Source: Chondrosia reniformis
Lineage: Eukaryota; Porifera; Demospongiae; Chondrillida; Chondrillidae
Reading direction: 5' to 3'
Assembly: GCA_947172415.1 (NCBI GenBank)
Contig: OX359196.1
Location: 126,501-190,500, forward strand
Length of the DNA: 64,000 nt
Below the pieces are notes generated by a model, which was not told where the DNA came from, searched no databases, and saw only the letters and a program-made list of their open reading frames with translations. This document shows, piece after piece, positions 512 to 12,656 of this stretch. Each line of letters opens with the position of its first letter. The stretch's first letter is position 1. The position numbers were made by a program, and so were the translations under genes.

Positions 512-2189
512 TCAGTTCATACTCATACTCCCAATGCAAATGTATCCAATTGGTGAAATTGGCACTTTGACATTTTCAGACTCTTTGTTTTGATCTTGTG
601 CTAAGCTTGACAGTGTGTCCTGCTCCTTCTTATTGTCCTTTTCACTAAACTCTGTCCAATCTTGTATAATAGTTCCTGTGTCACTTGACATATTATCCAA
701 TTCAATCAAGGTGATGTTATTTATTGCCTATACAATACAATATTTATATAACAGCCATATTTATCAACTTGTACAAAGGAGAAAGTGACATGAAACTGTA
801 TCCTTATCCAAAGTTCTATAGGTTTTGGAAGAGGATGCTCTTTGGAACTTCAATCAAGCTCCTGAAATGGCTATATAGCTTAAATCTAGGTAATTGTATG
901 GTGAATGTATATATTTCAGAAACACTCACATCTCTGACACATTTTTTTGAGATTTTATTTCTGTTTAACCTTGCACTATACAATAAATCAGTTTATGAGG
1001 CATTATACGCATAGTTTGTGAAAATATCATGTCAATGTTTACCTATATATATTAACATGCTTACTTCAAGATGCAAAGGGAAAGTCCCACAATGGCTAGA
1101 CCCCCAACTAAAGCAAGTGGAGTGACTACTGCAATCAGAGCTACATTTAGTTTTGCATAACCATCACTTCCTGTTGAATTATTCTGCTCATAATCAATAG
1201 CATCACCTATAGAGTTTGGCAACATTAGCTGATTTTTTGGTACATGTCTACAGTAGCATATATCGAGAAGTTAAATTTTGATTACAACAGTTTTTCATAT
1301 ACACATGCATACATGTATCTAAATGGTTATATGATAGATATTATAATAGTATGTGAACTGATACTATAGAATGACCAGAAACACTTTATAACCTGCAAAA
1401 GTGCAGTTTCCATAAATTGGGATTTGTTTCTCTTCCTTGATGTGATAAAGCTTAAGAATAACTTGGCAGTCTGTTTTCCCAACATTTCTACTCTCATTTG
1501 TAGCAACCTCATCACAACCATCCAAAATAAAGTCTTCAACAAGTGAATATGTTCCGTTTTTCAAAGGACTGCCTCCAAATCTACAAGTCAGCTATGAAAT
1601 GTACAATATAGGATAGTTATATATATATATATATATCTACCTAAAGCTATGCACAGACCTATATTCACATATTGCAGGTTGTGTTATAACAGTATATGTC
1701 TGTGCAGTTAATGCTCACTATCTCTACAGAGTCATCTTTGTATGTATAGCATTCCAGTTCTGGTTTGAAGTTGTAGTATGCACCAGGGTTGTAAAACATA
1801 GTTGTGAATGTCACATTTGGATGTCGTGTTCCATCCTCACAGGAAATATTAGGGAGAATCACTATACAATAGAAAAGAACATTGAAACATTTAAGGAGAT
1901 TAAACACTGGCCCAAGCTTAACTGTGTACTCTTAGCCATAGGTCTCCGTGTCTGTATTTCAGATCTCAATTAATTACAGTACTAATCAATTAGTCAAGAT
2001 AACTTTATATTTATGTAATGCGTATATTAAATATTATTGTTAATTAAGTTAGACATATATATTCCTGAACCAACTCATATATGATCATTCACTTGAAGGT
2101 CTTTCTAGTTGTGTAGAAGTTGATGCTATCAGATCAGATAGAAGAAAATACACTAAACTTGTGGGGAGAATTGTTACTAATCGCTTCAT
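512..2189 (-). CDS. Receptor-like type I membrane protein A (tandem family)
   Basis: I do not recognise this family. Exons by phase: 2189-2093 (ATG plus hydrophobic signal peptide MKRLVTILPTSLVYFLL), 1861-1669, 1580-1393, 1206-1065, then a last exon ending at the stop at 512. The middle exons carry an N-glycosylated ectodomain with about eight cysteines. Exon 4 carries a transmembrane helix (VALIAVVTPLALVGG...). The layout and most intron phases match genes B, C and D, which supports homology despite low identity. The tail is rich in Glu/Asp/Lys and ends SPIGYICIGSMSMN, where IGYICI fits the ITIM consensus; gene D ends with a similar LGYVPI. The start of the last exon is not settled: the only in-phase acceptor I see is weak (near 675), and a small extra juxtamembrane exon in 740-900 is possible. 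Likely a cell-surface recognition receptor; ligand unknown. Confidence 0.68.
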
Positions 2190-3661
2190 CACTCTTATAC
2201 CAGCTAACAATTCGGTTGCAAAAGCTCTGTAGAGTGTCAAGCAAAGGAATTTAACAGTATATATATAAGTGCTCTACCCACTGACAGGAAGTACTATCCA
2301 CAGGAAGTACGCCCACCTTGCATATACGTGTCCTAAAAGAGCCCGCGTCAGAGCCATCGAGATTTACCAACAAACATGTAATTAGCCCTCTGTCATGATT
2401 AAGTATAAATCGCTTCAGTCTCATCGCTCTGGGCTCAAACCGAATCTATAATGTGTGCAGCAAATACACGCATATATACGTCGTTTAAAATATATTCGTC
2501 CTATCAACTCGCAAAATACATCCCCCTTCTCCACTACCTCTCCCCCTCCCATCCTCCTCCCCTCCACTCCCCCTCCACTCCCCCTAGGCCCTCCCCTCAC
2601 ACATTTAGGTTCATTTTTTTCTGCCCAATTCCTAGTATTGAGGGTTGAACTGAAGTCTAATTAATAGGATGACACTTGTTTGTTGGCTAATTACTTCACC
2701 ACTGTAACATGTAGTTGGTTTGTTTCCTGAAATGACTAGAGGTAACCTCAGACCCGTTGCTAGGAGTCACCTCAGACCAGGAGTAGCCAAAGACTTACTA
2801 GTAGAACACAATTTCATACCAATTTTAAATTAATTGCTTTCCTGATTTGAATAAGCTTGTAATGCTACCTTGTAGTGTACAATGTTTTCTCGTGCTTTAT
2901 ATCCTATTTGGACCATGTAGTGCATGAGAATAGCTGTTAATATTTAACAGGTTGAATAGTATAATTATGCAAAGTGTGGAAATTGTGTTTATGTACCCAC
3001 TCCACTTGTACAGTAGAATAATGTTATACGAAATTCAAGGGACTGTTTAAATATTTCTTGTTAACAGCTAGCTATACATATCTATGTCTAATTGTCCTGC
3101 CATTTCGGATGCCTTTACTTGCAGAATAGTACCAGTTACAGACACATTTTTGTCACGAACAGCTTTGAACCAAAACAACTAAGCGTCTTCTACTTCTTCA
3201 AACTCGGCCATCTGTAGTCCCTATACTACTAGTAGAACACAGTTTCTTATCAATTTTGCATGTATGCAAAGTATATCCTCATCAAAAAGGAAAAAGATTG
3301 AAAATGTGGAGAAATGATTCAAAATTTTAACAAAATAGATAATTACATGTCATTTATGTACATCGGTTCCTTTTTGGGTTAATAATTAACTGAAAAGGGT
3401 CCTCTCAGTATACTATTACTTCCAATTTCAATTGCTACAGCTCCTTACAAATCATGAACAGTGCCTATAGCTCTTTGCTTATTTACCTTACACTAAACGG
3501 AAGTGATTTCATGTCTCAAACGGAAGTAAGTGCTTCGATACGTATATTCGCTACAGAATTGCAATATATATCTTTATATCTTTTGTGTTTAAGTGCTGTT
3601 TGTCCCTGTCACTTTTTCGTTCTATATAATCTATACTTGTGCACGTCTGCACGTCTGCAAG
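2190..3661. promoter_or_regulatory. Shared upstream region between divergent genes A and B
   Basis: About 1.5 kb between the start codons of gene A (minus) and gene B (plus), so it should hold both promoters. It contains a C-rich stretch at 2520-2590 with no exon-like signal. No convincing TATA element or repeat family was seen. The open frames in it are short and lack family resemblance. Confidence 0.45.
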
Positions 3662-5630
3662 ATGCGTCAGGTGCTATTTTTAGCTCTACTGTTCTTCAGA
3701 ATTTATCGAGCAGAGGGAGGTTAGTAATTGGAACAAAGAAGCTGTAAATAATGATTAATCATATAATACTTTATGTCAGCTTGATAGTATATACTCGTAT
3801 TAATTGCACGTTAAATCGACGGTTCATTAAAAAATCAAAAATCTAAATATTCAAATGTTGCATTTCCCTCATATTGTATATGCAGGATCTGTTCTGCTAC
3901 TCGATGCAGAGTTGGAATGCCAGCAGTTCCCTTGGCGGATCAATTTCACTTATGTCTTCAACAGTAGTTTTGCTTGGGACCCATTTGGATCATACAGATA
4001 CACTATTACCTGCTATGAACCCTCAGCACAATATTGTGTGAGTATATATAATACATGTGTTCAATATAACTTTCTATAGAGTGTGTATACTTATATATTG
4101 AATCATGCTGCAATTTATATTATAGTTTACACATATTTTAATATGCAACTCCAAGTATGCATTACTTTAAATGAGTCACTGCACGATTCAATCATGCATG
4201 ATTGTGTGATGATGTATGCAGGTTATATAGGCACAGTGTAAATGTACATCAACCAATCAATTGACTGGTCTCCCAAACAGGAGGTTGTTTATATACACTT
4301 ATAATACAGTATTTTTACATATAAAAGTTTGATAATTATATAAGCTACTAGTGTCATTGCATTACTACGTACTGAAAAGGGGGAAATAAACTATATAGAG
4401 TGAGAGCTTTGCATGAGTACATGGCACAAGAGTCTTCTCCTCCTTTTTCTCCACTGAGCCAGACAGTTTATCTGGGAATGTCATCCTTCATTAGTGCATG
4501 ACCTTGAAAGTCTTTATGTTTCCTCATCTTGCACTACTCATACATAGCTATAGATAATATATCAGCTTTTGACTGATATGGTTTCAGAATCACAAAGAAT
4601 TCTCTTTAGAAAATTAATTGATGACTTAAGCTAACACACATACTTCCAAGCACTGGCTGGAGCTGATGTGTGATGTAAGGATGGTGTCATGACCTGAAAC
4701 AACTTGGCTACAAAGCCACAAAATACAAGATCATCACCTCCTACCAGACACATGAATGTAGTGTCTAATTCACAGATCCTCTCTATATGTATATAAATGA
4801 AGGTATTGAACTGCAAGACCAAATGATTTTAAAGACTTTTTAAATTGAACAGATTTTTAATTGAGACCTTTTTGATTATATAAAATCCATTTTATATTAT
4901 ATACATATATATATATATATATATAGGGTATGATTGTTCAGAAACGTGGCCTGACAGTGAAAAGAGAAGACTCCACTTACTATGTTCATGAGTTGGTGGA
5001 TGACATTCACTTGATGGAGAGGCCTGTACCATGCCAGGACCTGGAGGAGGCCAGCAACAACACTCCGTACTGCACTATAGACTTCTTTATGGAATGGTTA
5101 CAGTACAAACCAGTGCAACTTAGAGTTTTATGTGAACCAGCTGAGGGTATGTATTATATGATAGTTTGTAAATTCTGCAGCTGCTTCATTATAACATTTT
5201 ACATTGCATCAGATCCCTCGATACAAAATGTGACATGTAAATGTGATGATCATGGCCTGTCTAGTCTAGAAGTTATTCTCCTAGTGTCTCTCTCTGCTGC
5301 TACTGGCCTGATACTGATTGTGTTGGCATCAGCTCTGGTTCTAATTAGGTATGTATACATACGTCAGGATCAGTTTGTGTACCATGCACGTATATCTATA
5401 TACAGGTATACATACACTCATACCTGCACCATAATATATAGTATCTGCATGGAATTATAACACACAATAGAGATATTCCATGTAGGATTTGTTATACATA
5501 TATATATTTCTGTCATGCACAAAGGTATAATTGTTGCAAAAAAGTTTCAGCTCTGTGCAAAGGGAGAAACTGCAGTTTTGAAATGGATATGAGTGATGTT
5601 GTCATCAAAGACGCAGATGTGGATGGATGA
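3662..5630 (+). CDS. Receptor-like type I membrane protein B (tandem family)
   Basis: Exons 3662-3719, 3886-4037, 4927-5146, 5213-5348 and 5525-5630 join in phase to 223 residues. Exon 1 is a signal peptide (MRQVLFLALLFFRIY). Exons 2 and 3 form the ectodomain and share with gene C the spacing FPW..NFTY..NSSF, ITCYEP and NNTPYC. Exon 4 encodes NVTCKC then a helix (ILLVSLSAATGLILIVLASAL). The cytoplasmic tail is only about 35 residues, starts with a Cys/Lys-rich juxtamembrane stretch (YNCCKKVSALCKGRNC) and has no ITIM-like tyrosine, unlike A and D. Intron 2 (889 bp) is AT-rich with no recognised element. Function unknown; inferred to be a short-tailed member of the same surface receptor family as A, C and D. 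Confidence 0.75.
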
Positions 5631-5785
5631 AAGAGAATTGCCTAAATATATACACTCAGAATTAATTATGTCATGATACTACAATATTTGCAGAATTAAG
5701 TTACAGTAACAATTACTGTAACTGTATATACATTATTACGTTATTAATGTGCCCATGTATGCATATATAGCTATAAGCAAAAATA

Positions 5786-5930
5786 GTGGGTTATGTGTCA
5801 GATGTAGCTTTCATGAGATTTGTAGTTTTTGATGAGGAATACTTTGGCGAACCAAACTTCTTAGGTCAGGCGACTTTCCAGCCTTTGGAGTGGCTACGTA
5901 TACCGCTCTGTTGGAACAGTTGTCCAAACA
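5786..5930 (+). pseudogene. Orphan fragment of a phospholipase C-gamma-like C2 domain
   Basis: The plus strand encodes about 40 residues including MRFVVFDEEYFGEPNFLGQA. This resembles the C2 domain of PLC-gamma, where the family has FLRFVVYEEDMF..NFLAQATFP. The frame degenerates right after WLRIP and no flanking PLC exon is present. It lies between receptor genes B and C, so it reads as a relic exon or retro-fragment rather than a gene. It could instead be a captured exon used by a neighbour, but no splice partner is visible. Confidence 0.55.
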
Positions 5931-6310
5931 ATTCTAAGCACTATAGCTATATATACCATTTTCTAACATCATATACTAATCCATAACATCACCTGTAAAC
6001 TGTAAATTGAAATTTCCATTCAAAAGGTGAGGGGTTATACATGTATAGTGAAATCTAAAAACTAAAGGTATAAGAAGAATGTTAACAATGTAAATAAGCC
6101 AATTGCGCAGCAGCAATAATCAAACGCGATAACACGCACTTTTCGATACGACCCTTATACGTACCGCCAGGGTAAAGTACATATTCACGAATATGATTTA
6201 ATAGTGTTGCTCATATCTATATGGCTGCAACTCGAGTAGGAAATTGGAAGTTCTCATGCATACTTGAAAATTTAATTTGACAGGTGTATACGTAGTAAGC
6301 TCCGGTCGAG

Positions 6311-8047
6311 ATGGTCTGGTTCAAACTGCTAGTAAATCTGGCCCTGATGGTCTCGCAAGTTAATGCAGGTTAGCAAATTATATTAATTATATATGGTATA
6401 TATTCATATGGTTACACTATGTGCGCCCAGACAGTCGGGCTATGTATACCTGGGCGGACGGCTTAAGTGGCGATGGTTTATTACGTACGTGCCTAGGTAT
6501 AGCCCTGTGCCCCTTAACCAGAACTGGCTGGCATTTACATATACACATTATAACCGTATGTATATGCGTTGGCACTTTAAAAATAATTATTATAATAATA
6601 TAATATTGTCATCTCACTAATTTATGATAATTATATTATATAATCGCCATGTGTATATGTATAGGTGCCGTCATCTTGTTGGATCACAGTCTCTCTTGCG
6701 GTTCCTTTCCCTGGACTTTCAATTTCACGTTTTCTTACAATAGCAGCTACGAGTTCGATCCACCTTTTAAATCGTATAGTTCAGCTTATGGATACAAAGT
6801 TACTTGTTACGACCCTTCGACAAGAGCGTGTGTGAGTTGTTCAACATTTGCATAACGTATCTGTGTATATACATTGTAGCCACTGTTGCATCCCTACTTC
6901 TTACTGTCGAATGCACTGCACATCTGACACTATAATCATGATCAACGGGTTGGTACGTAGGGCAATATCGAGAATGCACGCAAAAGCGGATTGACAGTTG
7001 GATCCATAAATGATAAGAAAGGTCCCATTGAAATATATATTGCAAAGAAAGATTTCATAAATGTAACTTGTCCTTACAATGCTGATGACACACCGTACTG
7101 CTCATTGGAATTTAATGTGGACTTTAAAAGAGTACCCGTGCTACCAGATCCAGTTTTCTGTTCAGGTACACGACCTATAGCTGCATGTTACTTTACTATA
7201 TACTGTTTGAAAGTATGCTCTATACATGACACACTCTAGTTCCGGAGATAGCTACTCCTACTGATCCTCAATCTCCTACTGATCCTGTGTTAGTCCTCTC
7301 TGTATCATTCTCCATCGTATTCCTATTTGGAATTGGACTGACTGCTCTACTTGTTATTTTGATATTAAAGTGAGTGATCACAAGCTAGGAATTACATGTA
7401 TATAGCATAATAATTGGTATAACCCTAACCTGGCTATACCTCTGGGTTGGAAATGTTCAATCTCTATATTATATTATGTGTGCTTATGTTGTTTATTACA
7501 ATCAAACCACAAGTAAGAAATCATTCTAAAATATAAAGAAGAAAATTAATTGTTGGGAATCAAACATAGGACAGCTGGTTATGACCACCAGTGCTCTGCC
7601 ACTGAGCTACAATTGCCACAGCAATCCTCCATGTTGCAGCCTCTTGTACAAGCTATACAAGTAATTAGTCAGGTTCACTGATTAGTGATTCTCTTTACCA
7701 GAATCAGTTGATATAATCAACTATAATATGCATTTCATTGAATGATCCTGTATGGAATATACCTATAGCTGATAAAGCATTATATAGTGCATGCTTATTG
7801 TATAAATGTCATAATATGTACAATTGACTCTTAAATATATAATGGTGATGTACATCTGTATGATAGATGTCTGAGACTCCCACCAAAGAATATCATTATT
7901 CATTCAGTCTGTCGGAACTATACAGATATAAATGATGTTGATGTAGAGAAGGCGCTGGCAGTGACCATCACTGAAACAGACTATTGCAATAAATCACAAT
8001 TCAGTGAAAATATAGACCCAAAGAGTGCAGCTGCAGTTGTAGAGTAA
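6311..8047 (+). CDS. Receptor-like type I membrane protein C (short tail, paired with D)
   Basis: Exons 6311-6368, 6665-6831, 6961-7165, 7240-7369 and 7867-8047 join in phase to 246 residues. Exon 1 is the signal peptide (MVWFKLLVNLALMVSQ). Exons 2-3 give a cysteine-bearing, N-glycosylated ectodomain; exon 4 a Pro/Thr stalk (TPTDPQSPTDP) and an uncharged transmembrane helix. The 60-residue tail starts KCLRLPPKN and holds NYTDI and ETDYCNKS. YCN fits the Grb2-type SH2 motif pYxN, but no ITIM is present. Exons 1-4 and introns 2-3 are almost identical to gene D, while intron 4 and exon 5 are not. Intron 1 holds a TAA-tailed SINE-like copy absent from D, and intron 4 a tRNA-derived SINE. Probable surface receptor; ligand unknown. 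Confidence 0.82.
6436..6610 (+). mobile_element. TAA-tailed SINE-like element, copy 1
   Basis: In intron 1 of gene C. Shares the core CTTAAGTGGCGATGGTTTA and AGCCCTGTGCCCCTTAACCA with copies at 9475, 11427 and 29608, followed by an A/T trinucleotide-rich tail. It carries the same GCGGACG segment as copy 2. Non-autonomous; no open frame. Confidence 0.7.
7499..7629 (-). mobile_element. tRNA-derived SINE, copy 1
   Basis: On the minus strand it begins with a tRNA-like head: TAGCTCAGTGGCAGAGC (A-box like), a CTGGT..ACCAG anticodon-stem-like hairpin around CAT, and GTTTGATTCCC (B-box like). An A-rich body and TGTGGTTTGATT end follow. Two further copies lie in MTMR14 introns. It sits in intron 4 of gene C, antisense to that gene. 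The anticodon loop does not fit a functional tRNA, so I call it a SINE rather than a tRNA gene. Confidence 0.72.
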
Positions 8048-8718
8048 TTAGAAGATCTAGACAGCTAATTATAAGAAACCACACTGGACTAATATGCTCA
8101 AGGATCATATATACACTATGTATACATGTTCTGTACATGATGTAGTTCATTATTGATAGTGTTTTAAAGCAGATATTAAACACATTGTAGTTTGTCTTTG
8201 AAAAATATAGCTTCTCTTGCAACAATTTGCTTAACTTTGTGATGTAGCACTTAAACAGTATCAATTTTACATACTACACAATTGCGTAAACACTTACAGA
8301 AGACTTCCAATTCCCTTGTGGGACTTTGCTGAATCTCAAGTATGTGGAAGCTTTATAGGAGCACATTTGTGAGTTACAAATAAACTTTATCACATGAGAC
8401 TCATATACCATACAAGGTGCACTGGTGATGTGACAAATTTTAGCCTTATTGAAATACAAAACAATCCAACTTCTATTATGTTGTAAGTTGATGATTGAAA
8501 TATCCTTATATAAGATATGCTTTAATTACAATTAAGACTATATGCTGCAAATTATATCCACTTATTCACTATATAGTGCATGTGGTATACAGTACATTTG
8601 GCTTCCTTTGAAGCAGCCATATAGTATATATATCTTTCTTGGAGCCATATAAATTATTTACCTTAGTATATACACTGGAACCTGCACTGTATATATCAGA
8701 GAGTACGGTAGTACTCTC
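8048..8718. other. Intergenic stretch after gene C
   Basis: AT-rich DNA between the stop codon of C and the foldback element. It presumably carries the C 3' UTR. No coding or RNA signal seen. Confidence 0.5.
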
Positions 8719-9465
8719 TATGTAGGGATGGTACGGGTTGTTTCGTTTTCCTCATACATTGGTATAGGAGCGAAATTCCGAATTAGGCTGAAAATCGCCA
8801 AAACGAGACTATGTAGAGTTGAATATAGAACAAACATGCTATAAATTGGCCTTGAAGGCAAGCGACCGTGTATCGTTGGTAAACGAACGAACTTTGAAAT
8901 CTCCCATTTTCGTTTTCTTCTTCTTCATCTTCTTCTTCTTCATCTTCTTCATCTTCTTCGCCCGCTGTAACTAAAAAACGAAATAAGCCTTCGGACTACT
9001 TCTTAATCGAAATTACTCTAAATTTTCCGAGCTGTATTCTTTTGTAGAAGCGAGAGCGATAACGCTATTATTGAGTATGACAGTTTTCATGGCTCAAGAG
9101 TCAAGACCTCAATAAATTCGCCATTTTAATGACGTCATAATCAGTCGAAGATTGCAAAACCAAAGTGGTTTAAAATACAACGAATTCCTAGCTTATGCTC
9201 CATAAAAAGTACAGAAACTAGAGAAAAATAAAAATTTTCTACAAAAATAGTGAAGATGTAGGGATGGCACAAAAAGCATAGAAACAAGAAAGGGATGTTA
9301 CACAGTGAAGCATTAGCTATGCATGAATCCTACAAGCAAGGGTGTTGTATGATTCGTGCATATATAGCTAATGCTTCACTATGTAACATCCCTTTCTTGT
9401 TTCTATGCTTTTTGTGCCATCCCTACATCTTCACTATTTTTGTAGAAAATTTTTATTTTTCTCTA
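8719..9465. mobile_element. Foldback/MITE-like element with near-perfect palindrome
   Basis: Positions 9219-9329 and 9351-9465 are near-perfect reverse complements with a loop of about 20 bp. TGTAGGGATGG occurs at 8719 and 9257 and inverted near 9415, so the palindrome may be one end of a larger inverted-repeat element starting near 8719. The left part contains a CTT-rich microsatellite (8913-8962) and a GCCATTTT..TGACGTCA segment near 9118. No transposase frame is present. Transcription through it would make a roughly 110-bp dsRNA hairpin. Confidence 0.72.
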
Positions 9466-9474
9466 TATGTATAG

Positions 9475-9770
<296 letters not shown>

Positions 9771-10381
9771 CTTACACTGCACATGGTAATCAAATTACAA
9801 GAAATCATCAATATGTCTTTAATTTGCGTCCATTCACAAAACAAAGTCCTAAACTCTAGATCTGTAAACATTCTACCAGCAGTTCACCTTGATCAATCTT
9901 CACACGACTCTATCACTAACGTCCCTATTCATGTCACCACTGAGATACTTCAAACTGCCTTGAAATCACCACGCACTACCACCTGGCTTTCCAGCTGAAA
10001 CCTTTGAATCTGATCAATCAACAATTAATTGGAAACGTTCTTCACTGTCTCAGGTGGTGGCATATTGTTGGTCTGTAGTGCCATGTGTGACGTCATCAGA
10101 GATCTATTATTATAGCGATCTGGTTCACTAGGCGACAACACATATTAAAAGAGTAATTCGATGTGAAGTGCGTGACATCCATGATAGGTATCTGAAACCT
10201 TACGAGTCAGCGGGGTCGGGTCTCATTCCTCTAGTGCTCCAAGGGTATATAAGCTTACGAACAATTAATGAGACATGTATTTATTGTGATCGAGGAGGAG
10301 AGCGTTGTGAGTCCAAAAATTGTATGGCAGAGCGCATTTTGTGATCTCAATAACATTCCATGCAGGAAAATCTCTGTCGAG
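9771..10381. other. Upstream region of gene D
   Basis: No exon recognised. It contains a CRE-like TGACGTCA near 10089 and GTATATAAG near 10245, which could be promoter elements of gene D. Only the last few bases before the start codon match the upstream of gene C, so the duplication boundary lies close to the start codon. Confidence 0.45.
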
Positions 10382-12037
10382 ATGGTCTGGTTCAAACTGC
10401 TAGTAGATCTGGTCCTGATGGTCTCGCAAATTAATGCAGGTTAGCAAATTGAATACACTATATAGACTACAGTCTGTTTATAAAATCGTCATGCATTAAT
10501 TTGTGTATGTAGGTGCCGTCATCTTGTTAGATCACAGTCTCTCTTGCGGTTCCTTTCCCTGGACTTTCAATTTCACGTTTTCTTACAATAGCAGCTACGA
10601 GTTCGATCCACCTTTTGAATCGTATAGATCACCTTATGGATACAGAGTTATTTGTTACGACCCTTCGACAAGAGCGTGTGTGAGTTGTTCAACATTTGCA
10701 TAACGTATCTGTGTATATACATTGTAGCCACTGTTGCATCCCTACTTCTTACTGTCGCATGCACTGTACATCTGACATTAATCACGATCGACGCGTTGGT
10801 ACGTAGGGCAATATCGAGAATGCACGCAAAAGCGGATTGACAGTTGGATCCATAAATGATACGAAAGGTCCCATTGAAATATATATTGCAAAGAAAGATT
10901 TCATAAATGTAACTTGTCCTTACAATGCTGATGACACACCGTACTGCTCATTGGAATTTAATGTGGAGTTTAAAAGAGTACCCGTGCTACCGGATCCAGT
11001 TTTCTGTTCAGGTACATGACCTATAGCTGCATGTTACTTTACTATATACTGCTTGAAAGTATGCTCTATACATGACACACTCTAGTTCCGGAGATAACTA
11101 CTCCTACTGATCGTCAATCTCCTACTGATCCTGTGTTAGTCCTCTCTGTATCACTCTCCATCGTATTCCTATTTGGAATTGGACTCACTGCTCTACTTGT
11201 TATTTTGATATTAAAGTGAGTGACCACACTATACAGAGATTAGGAATTGTATTTGACACTTTCATTATAAGATTACCTACAACTCAAAGACATCCGTTAA
11301 GGTGATATGTGTATGCATGGATAAAGTGATTCAATAAGATCAAAAGCCTTGAAAATGTCAATACAGATACAGATACTATCAGTATTATATCATCATGTTA
11401 AACTGCATGACTGGTTGGTTATAATGTCCAGGTATAGCCCTGTGCCCCTTAACCACTTTTGGTTTGCTTTTTATACTTTCATTGTATGCATGGGCACTCT
11501 ATATAATAATAGTATTATTATTTTTATGTTTGTAGATATAGATTTGTATAATACAGTATATATGAATATGTGGGAGACCTTTGACACATATATTATGTAT
11601 ACAAGTATATATATATATTTAGGTGTAGGAGAAACTTCAAACTGAGAGCAAATGCAATTTGTCATCTCAGTCTCAACTACTTGGATGACTTTATAAAAGA
11701 TGTTGATCCGGAGAAGGCAACAATCTTCAACGAAACAGACTATTGTAATGGAGATTCAAATTTAGAATTTCATGAAAACAAAGACAGTTCAACAGTTAAA
11801 GGAGACAAAACTAATGTTTTTGATGAGGAGATGTCGACAGAAATAACTCTTAATGAAGTGAAGTCATTGGAGACAAATTCTTCTCATGTTGATACTCCAT
11901 CTGCACAAAACTTAACTAACATTGACATCAGGAAAACTAAAATAGATTCCACATCTTCTGAAGCAGACAGTGGTGTAGTACTGGGATATGTACCCATTGG
12001 ATCATTACAGGAGAAATCAGATTGTCTCCCAAAGTGA
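10382..12037 (+). CDS. Receptor-like type I membrane protein D (long ITIM-like tail, paired with C)
   Basis: Exons 10382-10439, 10513-10679, 10807-11011, 11086-11215 and 11623-12037 join in phase to 324 residues. Signal peptide, ectodomain, Pro/Thr stalk and transmembrane helix differ from gene C at only 13 residues by my count. The tail is 138 residues, acidic and Ser/Thr-rich. It holds LNYLDDF, NETDYCNGD (same YCN motif as C) and near the C-terminus VVLGYVPIGSL, where LGYVPI fits the ITIM consensus [SIVL]xYxx[ILV]. AATAAA at 12121 is a likely polyadenylation signal. Intron 4 contains a truncated SINE-like copy. Inferred to be the inhibitory-type partner of gene C; phosphorylation and ligand are not shown. 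Confidence 0.85.
11427..11515 (+). mobile_element. TAA-tailed SINE-like element, copy 3 (5' truncated)
   Basis: In intron 4 of gene D. It starts at CCAGGTATAGCCC and continues through the TTAACCACTTTTGG and TGTATGCATGGGCACTCT segments shared with copy 2, then a short TAA-rich tail. Confidence 0.7.
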
Positions 12038-12656
12038 CTACTATATATACATACACATGAGGTGTAGTACGGACAATGTACTGTATATAGAACACTCCAA
12101 TGGTCATTGTTTATTGAACCAATAAATAGCATCTACAGCAAAACCTATCACTATATTGCACGTGCATTCAATGTAAACAACCAAGCCAATAACTAAAATA
12201 TGATATAAATGCAAGATAGTTCAACAACACATTCTCTCGTGTGTGATTGAGTGGTTTCAATATATGCATTTATACAGTTTCAATGATGCATTCCTAACAA
12301 TCCGCTACTATGCTAACACTTACATATTATAAATGGTTAAGCCAAGATAAGAGACATCTATATGTGTGAGCATCATCTGATTTAACTGTTATTATAACAA
12401 ACTATTTTGATGCTGTAGATTGTTTTTATGTATTCAAGTAAATCAATTGTTTCAGCTGACTAATGGAATGGAGTAATCTACTTAAAAAGTTGAAAGTTAT
12501 TTCAGTTAAAGAATATTAACTTTAGTAATATCTACATACACTAATATACTAAATTAACATGATATGATTATAACTTCATTAGGAAGTAAACATAAACACC
12601 TATATTCATGAGATGAGCCAACAAGAGGCAATGCCTGGATAGCCCCAAAAAATGGA
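12038..12656. other. Intergenic region between convergent gene D and MTMR14
   Basis: Contains the D polyadenylation signal at 12121 and presumably the MTMR14 3' UTR. AT-rich, no exon or repeat seen. Confidence 0.5.

Follow-up and report, generated by a model that had tools for sequence, protein, structure and literature searches.

The window analysed here, a stretch of 64,000 nucleotides from the sponge Chondrosia reniformis, begins with a row of small genes for type I membrane proteins. Do these genes form a receptor family and, if so, what could it recognise? The initial annotation had described four clustered receptors with a common exon plan and variable tails, and had proposed a recognition or immune-type family, perhaps specific to sponges. 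Our analysis partly supports this interpretation, and adds two further members (E and F). It also shows that one gene, D, is recombinant and that the members with long tails carry an ITIM-like motif.

Gene models and extent of the cluster

The gene models confirm a set of four genes for small type I membrane proteins, A to D, on a common exon plan with variable tails, spanning 512-12037 (stop codon of A to stop codon of D). Gene A lies on the minus strand (2189-512, 280 aa) and has six exons: a signal exon (2189-2093), two exons for a six-cysteine ectodomain (1861-1719 and 1591-1393), a transmembrane exon (1206-1065) and two tail exons (975-930 and 727-512). Genes B, C and D are on the plus strand. 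Gene B (3662-5630, 223 aa) consists of exons 3662-3719, 3886-4037, 4927-5146, 5213-5348 (transmembrane) and 5525-5630, the last of which encodes a tail of 35 residues. Gene C (6311-8047, 246 aa) consists of exons 6311-6368, 6665-6831, 6961-7165, 7240-7369 (transmembrane) and 7867-8047 (a tail of 60 residues), and gene D (10382-12037, 324 aa) of exons 10382-10439, 10513-10679, 10807-11011, 11086-11215 (transmembrane) and 11623-12037 (a tail of 138 residues). Each of the four models has an ATG start, GT-AG introns, a single open frame and a stop codon. The matching intron phases noticed earlier were borne out: the first four introns are in phases 1-0-1-2 in A-D and also in F, exons 1-4 and the fourth donor of E fit the same phases, and the tail of A contains one additional intron in phase 0. 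There is one strong transmembrane segment per protein. The ectodomain, about 120 residues encoded by two exons, carries N-glycosylation motifs; its cysteines number eight in B and six in each of the other members.

Genes E (C8:214250-213075) and F (C8:209949-208374) are found outside the window on the same chromosome, about 70 kb from A-D, so that the whole cluster comprises at least six genes at C8:127-214 kb. No further members appear among the matches listed in whole-genome tblastn searches with A, B and F (E up to 10), from which member counts are lower bounds. HMMs of the B-F exons also found none over C8:116501-220000 and 20 kb more flank, where the best extra matches have E values of 0.24 (exon 2), 0.48 (exon 3) and 0.053 (transmembrane exon) in the former and 0.026 (exon 2) in the latter.

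Kinship of the members and nature of the ectodomain

Genes B-F are related to one another, as judged from their sequences. They recover each other by genome tblastn, B chiefly via exon 2; B exon 3 reaches exon 3 of E and F with E values of 0.08-0.09 at best, and C exon 3 as query gives no match to B exon 3 at E ≤ 0.001. Between C and F, divergence is faster in exon 3 (39% amino acid identity) than in exon 2 (63%). All 13 exon indels in the pairs C/D, E/F and D/F are multiples of three, compared with 7 of the 31 intron indels (P = 1.5e-6, Fisher's exact test).

The place of A is different. It had been singled out as the most divergent gene and the only one in opposite orientation, and indeed it lies on the minus strand and its similarity to B-F is not detectable by tblastn or profile searches, so that kinship with B-F at the level of sequence was rejected. 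Its profile score is reached by 141 of 200 shuffles, and by 124 of 200 with the cysteines fixed. A has the same intron phases as B-F and a similar cysteine spacing (P = 0.007), yet no sequence match; the C-terminal 8-mer shared with A occurs in 34 of 2000 shuffles and the 6-mer in 266 of 2000. On its architecture, six-cysteine framework and C-terminal motif, we tentatively include A in the family, but A may be unrelated to the rest.

The ectodomains had been said to match no known family, and at the level of sequence this proved correct. The suggested HMM search of the assembled proteins was run, and Pfam gave no match above cut-off for the full proteins A, B, C, D and F; none of the five B-F ectodomains has any Pfam match with E up to 10. 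The Pfam rows obtained (DOP1_C, TMEM52, PIRT, DUF1833 and FXR_C3; E 0.0048-0.17) all fall short of their cut-offs and lie in transmembrane or tail regions. Searches of PDB sequences returned chance-level rows only, with a best E of 0.048 (zinc finger, calmodulin, cystathionine lyase, enoyl reductase and aromatic synthase; E 0.048-4.4), and the B-F ectodomain profile has no PDB match. A known domain was thus rejected at the sequence level for Pfam and PDB sequences. In the same genome, with 150 of 722 candidates scored, PF00047 identifies at least 48 Ig exons at a limit of E ≤ 1e-8, which a weak Ig match would miss; none of them lies in the cluster. Class I and II cytokine receptors have paired FN3 domains, with WSxWS in class I. 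The cluster proteins have one short ectodomain and no FN3 match, and by reading WSxWS is absent from A-F. Among 234 pattern stretches from bacterial and archaeal genomes and 81 from IMG/VR, no relative was confirmed, a result that concerns prokaryotes and viruses and is uninformative on other sponges. Our literature search of open-licence papers found no report of such a sponge receptor family or of such tails.

A chimeric gene and two kinds of tail

C and D had been called near-identical, which holds for exons 1-4 (94.8-98.5% DNA identity; 94% amino acid identity over the 123 codons of the ectodomain) and fails for the tail exon (49% amino acid identity over 53 codons). A plus-strand segment of C at 6649..7382, which covers exons 2-4 and the intervening introns 2 and 3, is 96.2% identical over 734 bp to the ectodomain and transmembrane segment of D at 10499..11228 (plus strand). 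The identity ends 13 bp past the transmembrane exon, and introns 1 and 4 differ between the two genes. Further downstream, the end of intron 4 and the tail exon of D (11529..12055, plus strand) share 94.7% identity across 532 bp with C8:208878-208357 at F. In exons 1-3, D is C-like (132 sites join C and D, 3 D and F, and 5 C and F), and in exon 5 it is F-like (58 sites join D and F, 2 C and D, and 1 C and F). The max-chi-square break falls at positions 481-499 of the D coding sequence and is reached by 0 of 2000 permutations; it places the inferred crossover zone at 11136..11154 (plus strand), within the transmembrane exon, with C-like sequence upstream and F-like sequence downstream. D is thus a chimera that combines the ectodomain type of C with the tail type of F, its junction lying inside the transmembrane exon, and the C/D pattern is best explained by recombination in this shared exon. 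The tail of C looks maintained rather than debris, since it keeps its frame relative to the tail of D (5 of 5 indels in-frame) and shows dN 0.435 and dS 0.832. There is no sign of positive selection in the C/D ectodomain, where nine changed codons give dN 0.024 and dS 0.026 (small counts).

We searched the cytoplasmic tails of these type I membrane proteins for ITIM-like motifs, defined as [ILVS]xYxx[ILV]. Long tails ending in such a motif are found in A, D and F (F by reading). In A the motif is IGYICI, within IGYICIGS (533..550, minus strand), and its tyrosine, with no other in the tail, stands tenth counting back from the C-terminus; in D the motif is LGYVPI, within LGYVPIGS (11981..11998, plus strand), with identical letters in F. 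The motif is absent from the tails of B and C, and E, whose tail is cut short, has none as read. Among shuffled tails the motif occurs in 6.4% for A (1.3% with the tyrosine at most 20 residues from the end) and in 16.3% for D (2.4% C-terminal). In both tails, which are otherwise dissimilar, it stands close to the C-terminus, and the -2 and +3 residues fit an ITIM. Smith-Waterman scores between tails were reached, among 500 shuffles, by 0 for C-D, 4 for B-D, 70 for A-D, 111 for B-C and 203 for A-C. The tail of C has two tyrosines, one in its single YTDI and one in ETDYCN; by reading it contains no ITAM, having only this one YxxI, and its transmembrane segment SIVFLFGIGLTALLVILIL has no charged residue.

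SHP-2-type phosphatases are the usual partners of ITIMs. At C3:9.106-9.117 Mb of the same genome, SH2, SH2 and PTP exons occur in this order, twice, and one SH2 exon there matches PTPN11, with an E value of 1.6e-33 for two-SH2 chains. The genome therefore has SH2-SH2-PTP gene sets of SHP-2 type, although the single stretch of the SHP-type locus that was read did not show the active-site signature of the PTP.

Possible function, alternatives and known systems

We see about an even chance that the cluster is a small family of modular surface receptors with long-tailed ITIM-like and short-tailed forms, possibly paired inhibitory and non-inhibitory ones, in which the tail exon sets the output. The six-cysteine ectodomain would be displayed at the cell surface and bind a putative ligand, and the cytoplasmic exon would be the module that fixes the signal. 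In A, D and F, phosphorylation of the C-terminal tyrosine would bring in an SHP-2-type phosphatase encoded by the sponge itself, and signalling would be damped; B, C and, as read, E would act without this inhibitory motif, giving opposed outputs. C and D would show the principle best, with almost one ectodomain on two tails through recombination in the transmembrane exon. Recognition is more plausible than from the cluster alone, because of the two additional members, the recombinant D and the ITIM-like motif in the long-tailed members, and the cluster is a candidate for recognition of self or microbes in the sponge. Some observations count against the receptor family: the six-residue motif is short, is frequent in shuffles without the C-terminal condition and fits YxxI/L, six genes are few for an immune receptor set, and C has neither the ITAM nor the charged residue in the membrane that would mark a classical activating partner.

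It is rather unlikely, in our judgement, that these are ordinary lineage-specific small membrane proteins for adhesion or uptake, whose tyrosine is a sorting signal and whose tail exchange is neutral gene conversion. The endocytic consensus is YxxI/L and the same tyrosine fits it; gene conversion is common between close copies, dN does not exceed dS in the changes between C and D, and only six members are among the matches listed. However, the flanking residues fit an ITIM in both dissimilar tails, the genome has SH2-SH2-PTP gene sets, and the different tail of C remains in frame. That the ectodomain is a highly divergent Ig, FN3 or cytokine-receptor-type beta-sandwich, invisible to sequence profiles, is a possible if doubtful alternative, which would place the family, as a new branch, within a superfamily already known and is compatible with the modular receptors on function. 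Its length, richness in cysteines and N-glycosylation motifs suit such a fold, as do its phase-1 borders, which are common to many extracellular modules. The Pfam failure of all five B-F ectodomains, the lack of a PDB match for their profile and the Ig exons found elsewhere but not in the cluster argue against it.

It is also very unlikely that part of the cluster is an artefact of assembly or decay, with C/D or E/F being alleles set in tandem and C and E dying copies. Exons 1-4 differ in DNA by 1.5-5.2% between C and D and by 0-1.9% between E and F, as alleles of a variable species could; the tail exon of E matches that of D over only 41 bp and its frame ends after 23 residues; and, according to the genome paper, 4 haplotypic duplications were taken out (PMC12181767). 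On the other hand, introns 1 and 4 and the tails differ between C and D, the tail of C is in frame, and the primary assembly, built from HiFi and Hi-C data, has a QV of 69.8 (PMC12181767).

The modular receptor family can be compared with known systems. Vertebrates have the paired inhibitory and activating receptors KIR, LILR and SIRP. The sponge cluster resembles them in its clustered genes, in similar ectodomains on ITIM and non-ITIM tails, as in the near-identical ectodomains of C (non-ITIM) and D (ITIM-like), and in the exchange of ectodomain-tail units. It differs from them in its sponge host, in an ectodomain without a detectable Ig domain, and in the short-tailed C, which lacks a charged transmembrane residue for recruiting an ITAM adaptor. 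We consider it distinctly unlikely that the cluster is a full sponge counterpart of NK-type or allorecognition clusters, with a new ectodomain fold, an ITIM-SHP axis and ITIM/non-ITIM pairs that arose by recombination in the transmembrane exon; if true, this axis would trace inhibitory receptors for recognition back to the root of the animals.

Among invertebrates, the fester co-receptors (FcoR) of the Botryllus fuhc locus, according to a 2025 review, are likewise type I proteins of one cluster with ITIM or YxxI/L/V tails, and the single YTDI of C parallels their core YxxI/L/V motif; FcoR proteins of 520-610 aa contain Ig as well as sushi domains and come from 53 loci to date, compared with one short six-cysteine domain and six genes in the sponge (PMC12065747). 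Hydractinia Alr genes are also clustered in a basal animal and their candidates are reported to carry ITIM/hemITAM-type motifs, but they are placed in the immunoglobulin superfamily, with 41 members, and the sponge cluster has no Ig match (PMC12065747, PMC11999971). Aggregation factors are further candidates in sponges for the recognition of cells and of self versus non-self; they are described as extracellular proteoglycan complexes, whereas the cluster proteins are single-pass membrane proteins (PMC11999971). The cluster would offer a concrete locus for genotyping in fusion/rejection assays. According to the 2025 review, candidate allorecognition proteins are not conserved among sponges, cnidarians and ascidians, and ITIM and hemITAM motifs occur in Botryllus receptors and Hydractinia alr candidates (PMC12065747). 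A sponge cluster with ITIM-like tails on an unclassified ectodomain would carry this ITIM/hemITAM thread into the sponges.

Structure and membership of the receptor gene family

Gene models were spliced by hand at GT-AG borders for A (minus strand, window 2189-512), B (plus strand, 3662-5630), C (plus strand, 6311-8047) and D (plus strand, 10382-12037), and the resulting frames are complete, encoding 280, 223, 246 and 324 amino acids, respectively. Introns 1-4 are of phases 1, 0, 1 and 2 in each of the four genes, which bears out the shared exon plan with matching phases proposed in the initial annotation: exon 1 encodes the predicted signal peptide, the ectodomain is split between exons 2 and 3, the transmembrane segment lies in exon 4, and exon 5 (exons 5 and 6 in A) supplies the cytoplasmic tail. 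Every protein has a single strong transmembrane segment (mean hydropathy 2.6-2.9) and six ectodomain cysteines, except for B, which has eight. All 13 exon indels among paralogues are in frame, whereas only 7 of the 31 intron indels are multiples of three (P = 1.5×10−6), which supports the predicted exon borders.

Exons 2 and 3 of C also have matching counterparts at C8:209-214 kb, on the opposite strand of the contig whose positions 126501-190500 form the window. Gene F (C8:209949-208374) is complete, with 319 amino acids, and gene E (C8:214250-213075) is intact from the signal through the transmembrane segment, its tail exon as read ending after 23 residues. The genome searched comprises 117,379,552 bases in 15 contigs; excerpts of the assembly's description give 117.37 Mb in 14 chromosomes plus the mitochondrion (PMC12181767). 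In whole-genome tblastn searches (E up to 10), A returned at least 6 matches, all to itself, and B and F returned at least 11 and at least 18, all within B-F, with no other locus among the matches listed for these three queries. B is linked to the other members chiefly through exon 2, its exon 3 being weakly similar (28% identity, E = 0.08-0.09). HMMs built from the exons of B-F gave convincing E-values for B-F alone across 103.5 kb of neighborhood, and a further 20 kb of flank added no member. The gene family is real and more structured than initially described.

A shares position, exon plan and intron phases with the family, and the spacing of its six cysteines is nearer to the family's than random placement (P = 0.007). 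IGYICIGS, at the C-terminus of A, is similar to LGYVPIGS in D, with equally good 8-mers in 34 of 2000 shuffles (10-mers, 26; 7-mers, 54; 6-mers, 266). A was not recovered by the exon HMMs, its hhalign score against the B-F profile (10.7) was matched by 141 of 200 shuffles (124 of 200 with cysteines held), and another profile comparison gave E = 0.33. A is a probable but unproven member.

At the sequence level, the ectodomains indeed match no known family, as had been claimed. Pfam searches found nothing above cut-off for the full proteins A, B, C, D and F, and no match at E up to 10 for any of the five B-F ectodomains. The B-F ectodomain profile had no match among PDB sequences at E up to 10, and PDB searches with a six-gene profile, B alone or A alone returned chance-like rows only. 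As a control, a genome search with the immunoglobulin profile PF00047 (E ≤ 1×10−8, 150 of 722 candidates scored) detected at least 48 Ig exons, none of which, among the matches listed at this threshold, lies in the receptor cluster. Ordinary Ig exons cluster at C6:8.12-8.18, C8:6.78-6.86 and C9:4.54-4.62 Mb, possibly as Ig receptor families. A scan of 10 open frames placed an LDL-receptor class B/EGF-type gene at window 25.4-27.0 kb (plus strand) and an ARIH1-type RBR ubiquitin ligase at 36.2-38.5 kb (minus strand).

Ectodomain and tail exchange in gene D

The alignment of C 6649-7382 with D 10499-11228 spans 734 bp at 96.2% identity; it takes in introns 2 and 3 and ends 13 bp beyond the transmembrane exon. 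From inside that exon onward D matches F, with 86.7% identity over D 11119-11376 and 94.7% over D 11529-12055. Informative coding sites in exons 1-3 group C with D at 132 sites, D with F at 3 and C with F at 5; the corresponding counts are 18, 2 and 1 in exon 4, and 2, 58 and 1 in exon 5. The best break falls within exon 4, at D coding positions 481-499, and its score of 187 was reached in none of 2000 permutations (maximum 18.7). D is a chimera of a C-type ectodomain and an F-type tail. It follows that C and D join almost the same ectodomain to different tails, and their reported near-identity holds for the ectodomain (94% of amino acids, 123 codons) but not for the distantly related tails (49%, 53 codons). 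C and F, too, share 97% identity over 110 bp in the last part of the transmembrane exon, so this stretch can act as a homology joint linking ectodomains to tails.

Protein identity between C and F is 39% in exon 3 and 63% in exon 2, with high dS (0.8 and 1.1). The C and D ectodomains differ by 7 nonsynonymous and 2 synonymous codon changes and the D and F tails by 5 and 0, counts too small to claim positive selection.

Between C and D lies an inverted repeat (window 9219-9465) with 107-nucleotide arms, 97% complementary and 33 nucleotides apart, hairpin or MITE-like. A 94-bp repeat (92.6% identity) occurs upstream of D (9576-9668) and in D intron 4 (11427-11520), with related pieces in C intron 1 (6428-6605) and E intron 3.

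Tail motifs and a candidate effector

The ITIM consensus, [ILVS]xYxx[ILV], fits the sole tyrosine of the A tail (10th residue from the end) and the last tyrosine of the D tail (16th from the end), and is absent from the B and C tails; the F motif is identical in letters to that of D. Shuffling the A tail yields a motif at any position in 6.4% of cases, and one whose tyrosine is no more than 20 residues from the end in 1.3%; for the D tail the figures are 16.3% and 2.4%. Since this tyrosine also fits the endocytic YxxI/L signal, inhibition is a candidate function of the ITIM-like tails. A DYCN stretch common to C, D and F fits a YxN site. Instead of an ITIM, the C tail has one YTDI, in keeping with the core YxxI/L/V motif reported for Botryllus FcoR tails (excerpts of PMC12065747), a match so short that it means little by itself.

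A candidate SHP-type effector is encoded at C3:9.106-9.117 Mb, where the exon order SH2 (PF00017), SH2, PTP (PF00102) occurs twice on the minus strand. In the 10 kb of this locus read, the SH2 core FLVRxS occurs three times and WPDHGVP once, and there is no match to an HCSAGxGR-type signature; the signature may be interrupted by an intron or, in the second set, fall beyond these 10 kb. Against PDB, a 43-residue SH2 exon matches PTPN11 chains (E = 1.6×10−33 where the chains have both SH2 domains); a query with two extra letters matches chains of the N-terminal SH2 alone (E about 2×10−17).

Elsewhere, PTP-domain exons cluster at C6 0.6-1.26, 3.07-3.14 and 6.1-7.0 Mb and C13 1.65-1.96 Mb, and the genome has at least 173 PF00102 matches (150 of 531 candidates scored), which suggests a large PTP expansion in Chondrosia reniformis. 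SH2 clusters are found at C9 1.355-1.361, 6.61-6.70 and 7.35-7.38 Mb, several in open frames of about 300-480 amino acids, and one 395-residue frame (C9 1.355-1.356 Mb) has three SH2 matches.

Proposed mechanism and comparison with known receptors

In our model, the ectodomains would bind a putative partner, long-tailed members would inhibit via ITIM and SHP, and short-tailed members would lack this brake. Such an arrangement fits the anatomy of paired receptors. We say that the cluster may work like these rather than that it is such a system, because C, a short-tailed member, has no charged transmembrane residue of the kind by which classical activating partners are defined. The interest of the cluster lies in ectodomain-tail exchange together with ITIM-like tails of predicted function in a sponge, and no such receptor family was described for a sponge in the literature searched, mostly titles and abstract openings. 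According to excerpts of PMC12065747, Botryllus FcoR receptors combine Ig and sushi domains with ITIM, hemITAM or core YxxI/L/V motifs, and ITIM-type motifs are also found in Hydractinia alr candidates. Compared with these systems as described there, the sponge cluster is alike in tail logic and clustering, but not in its ectodomain.
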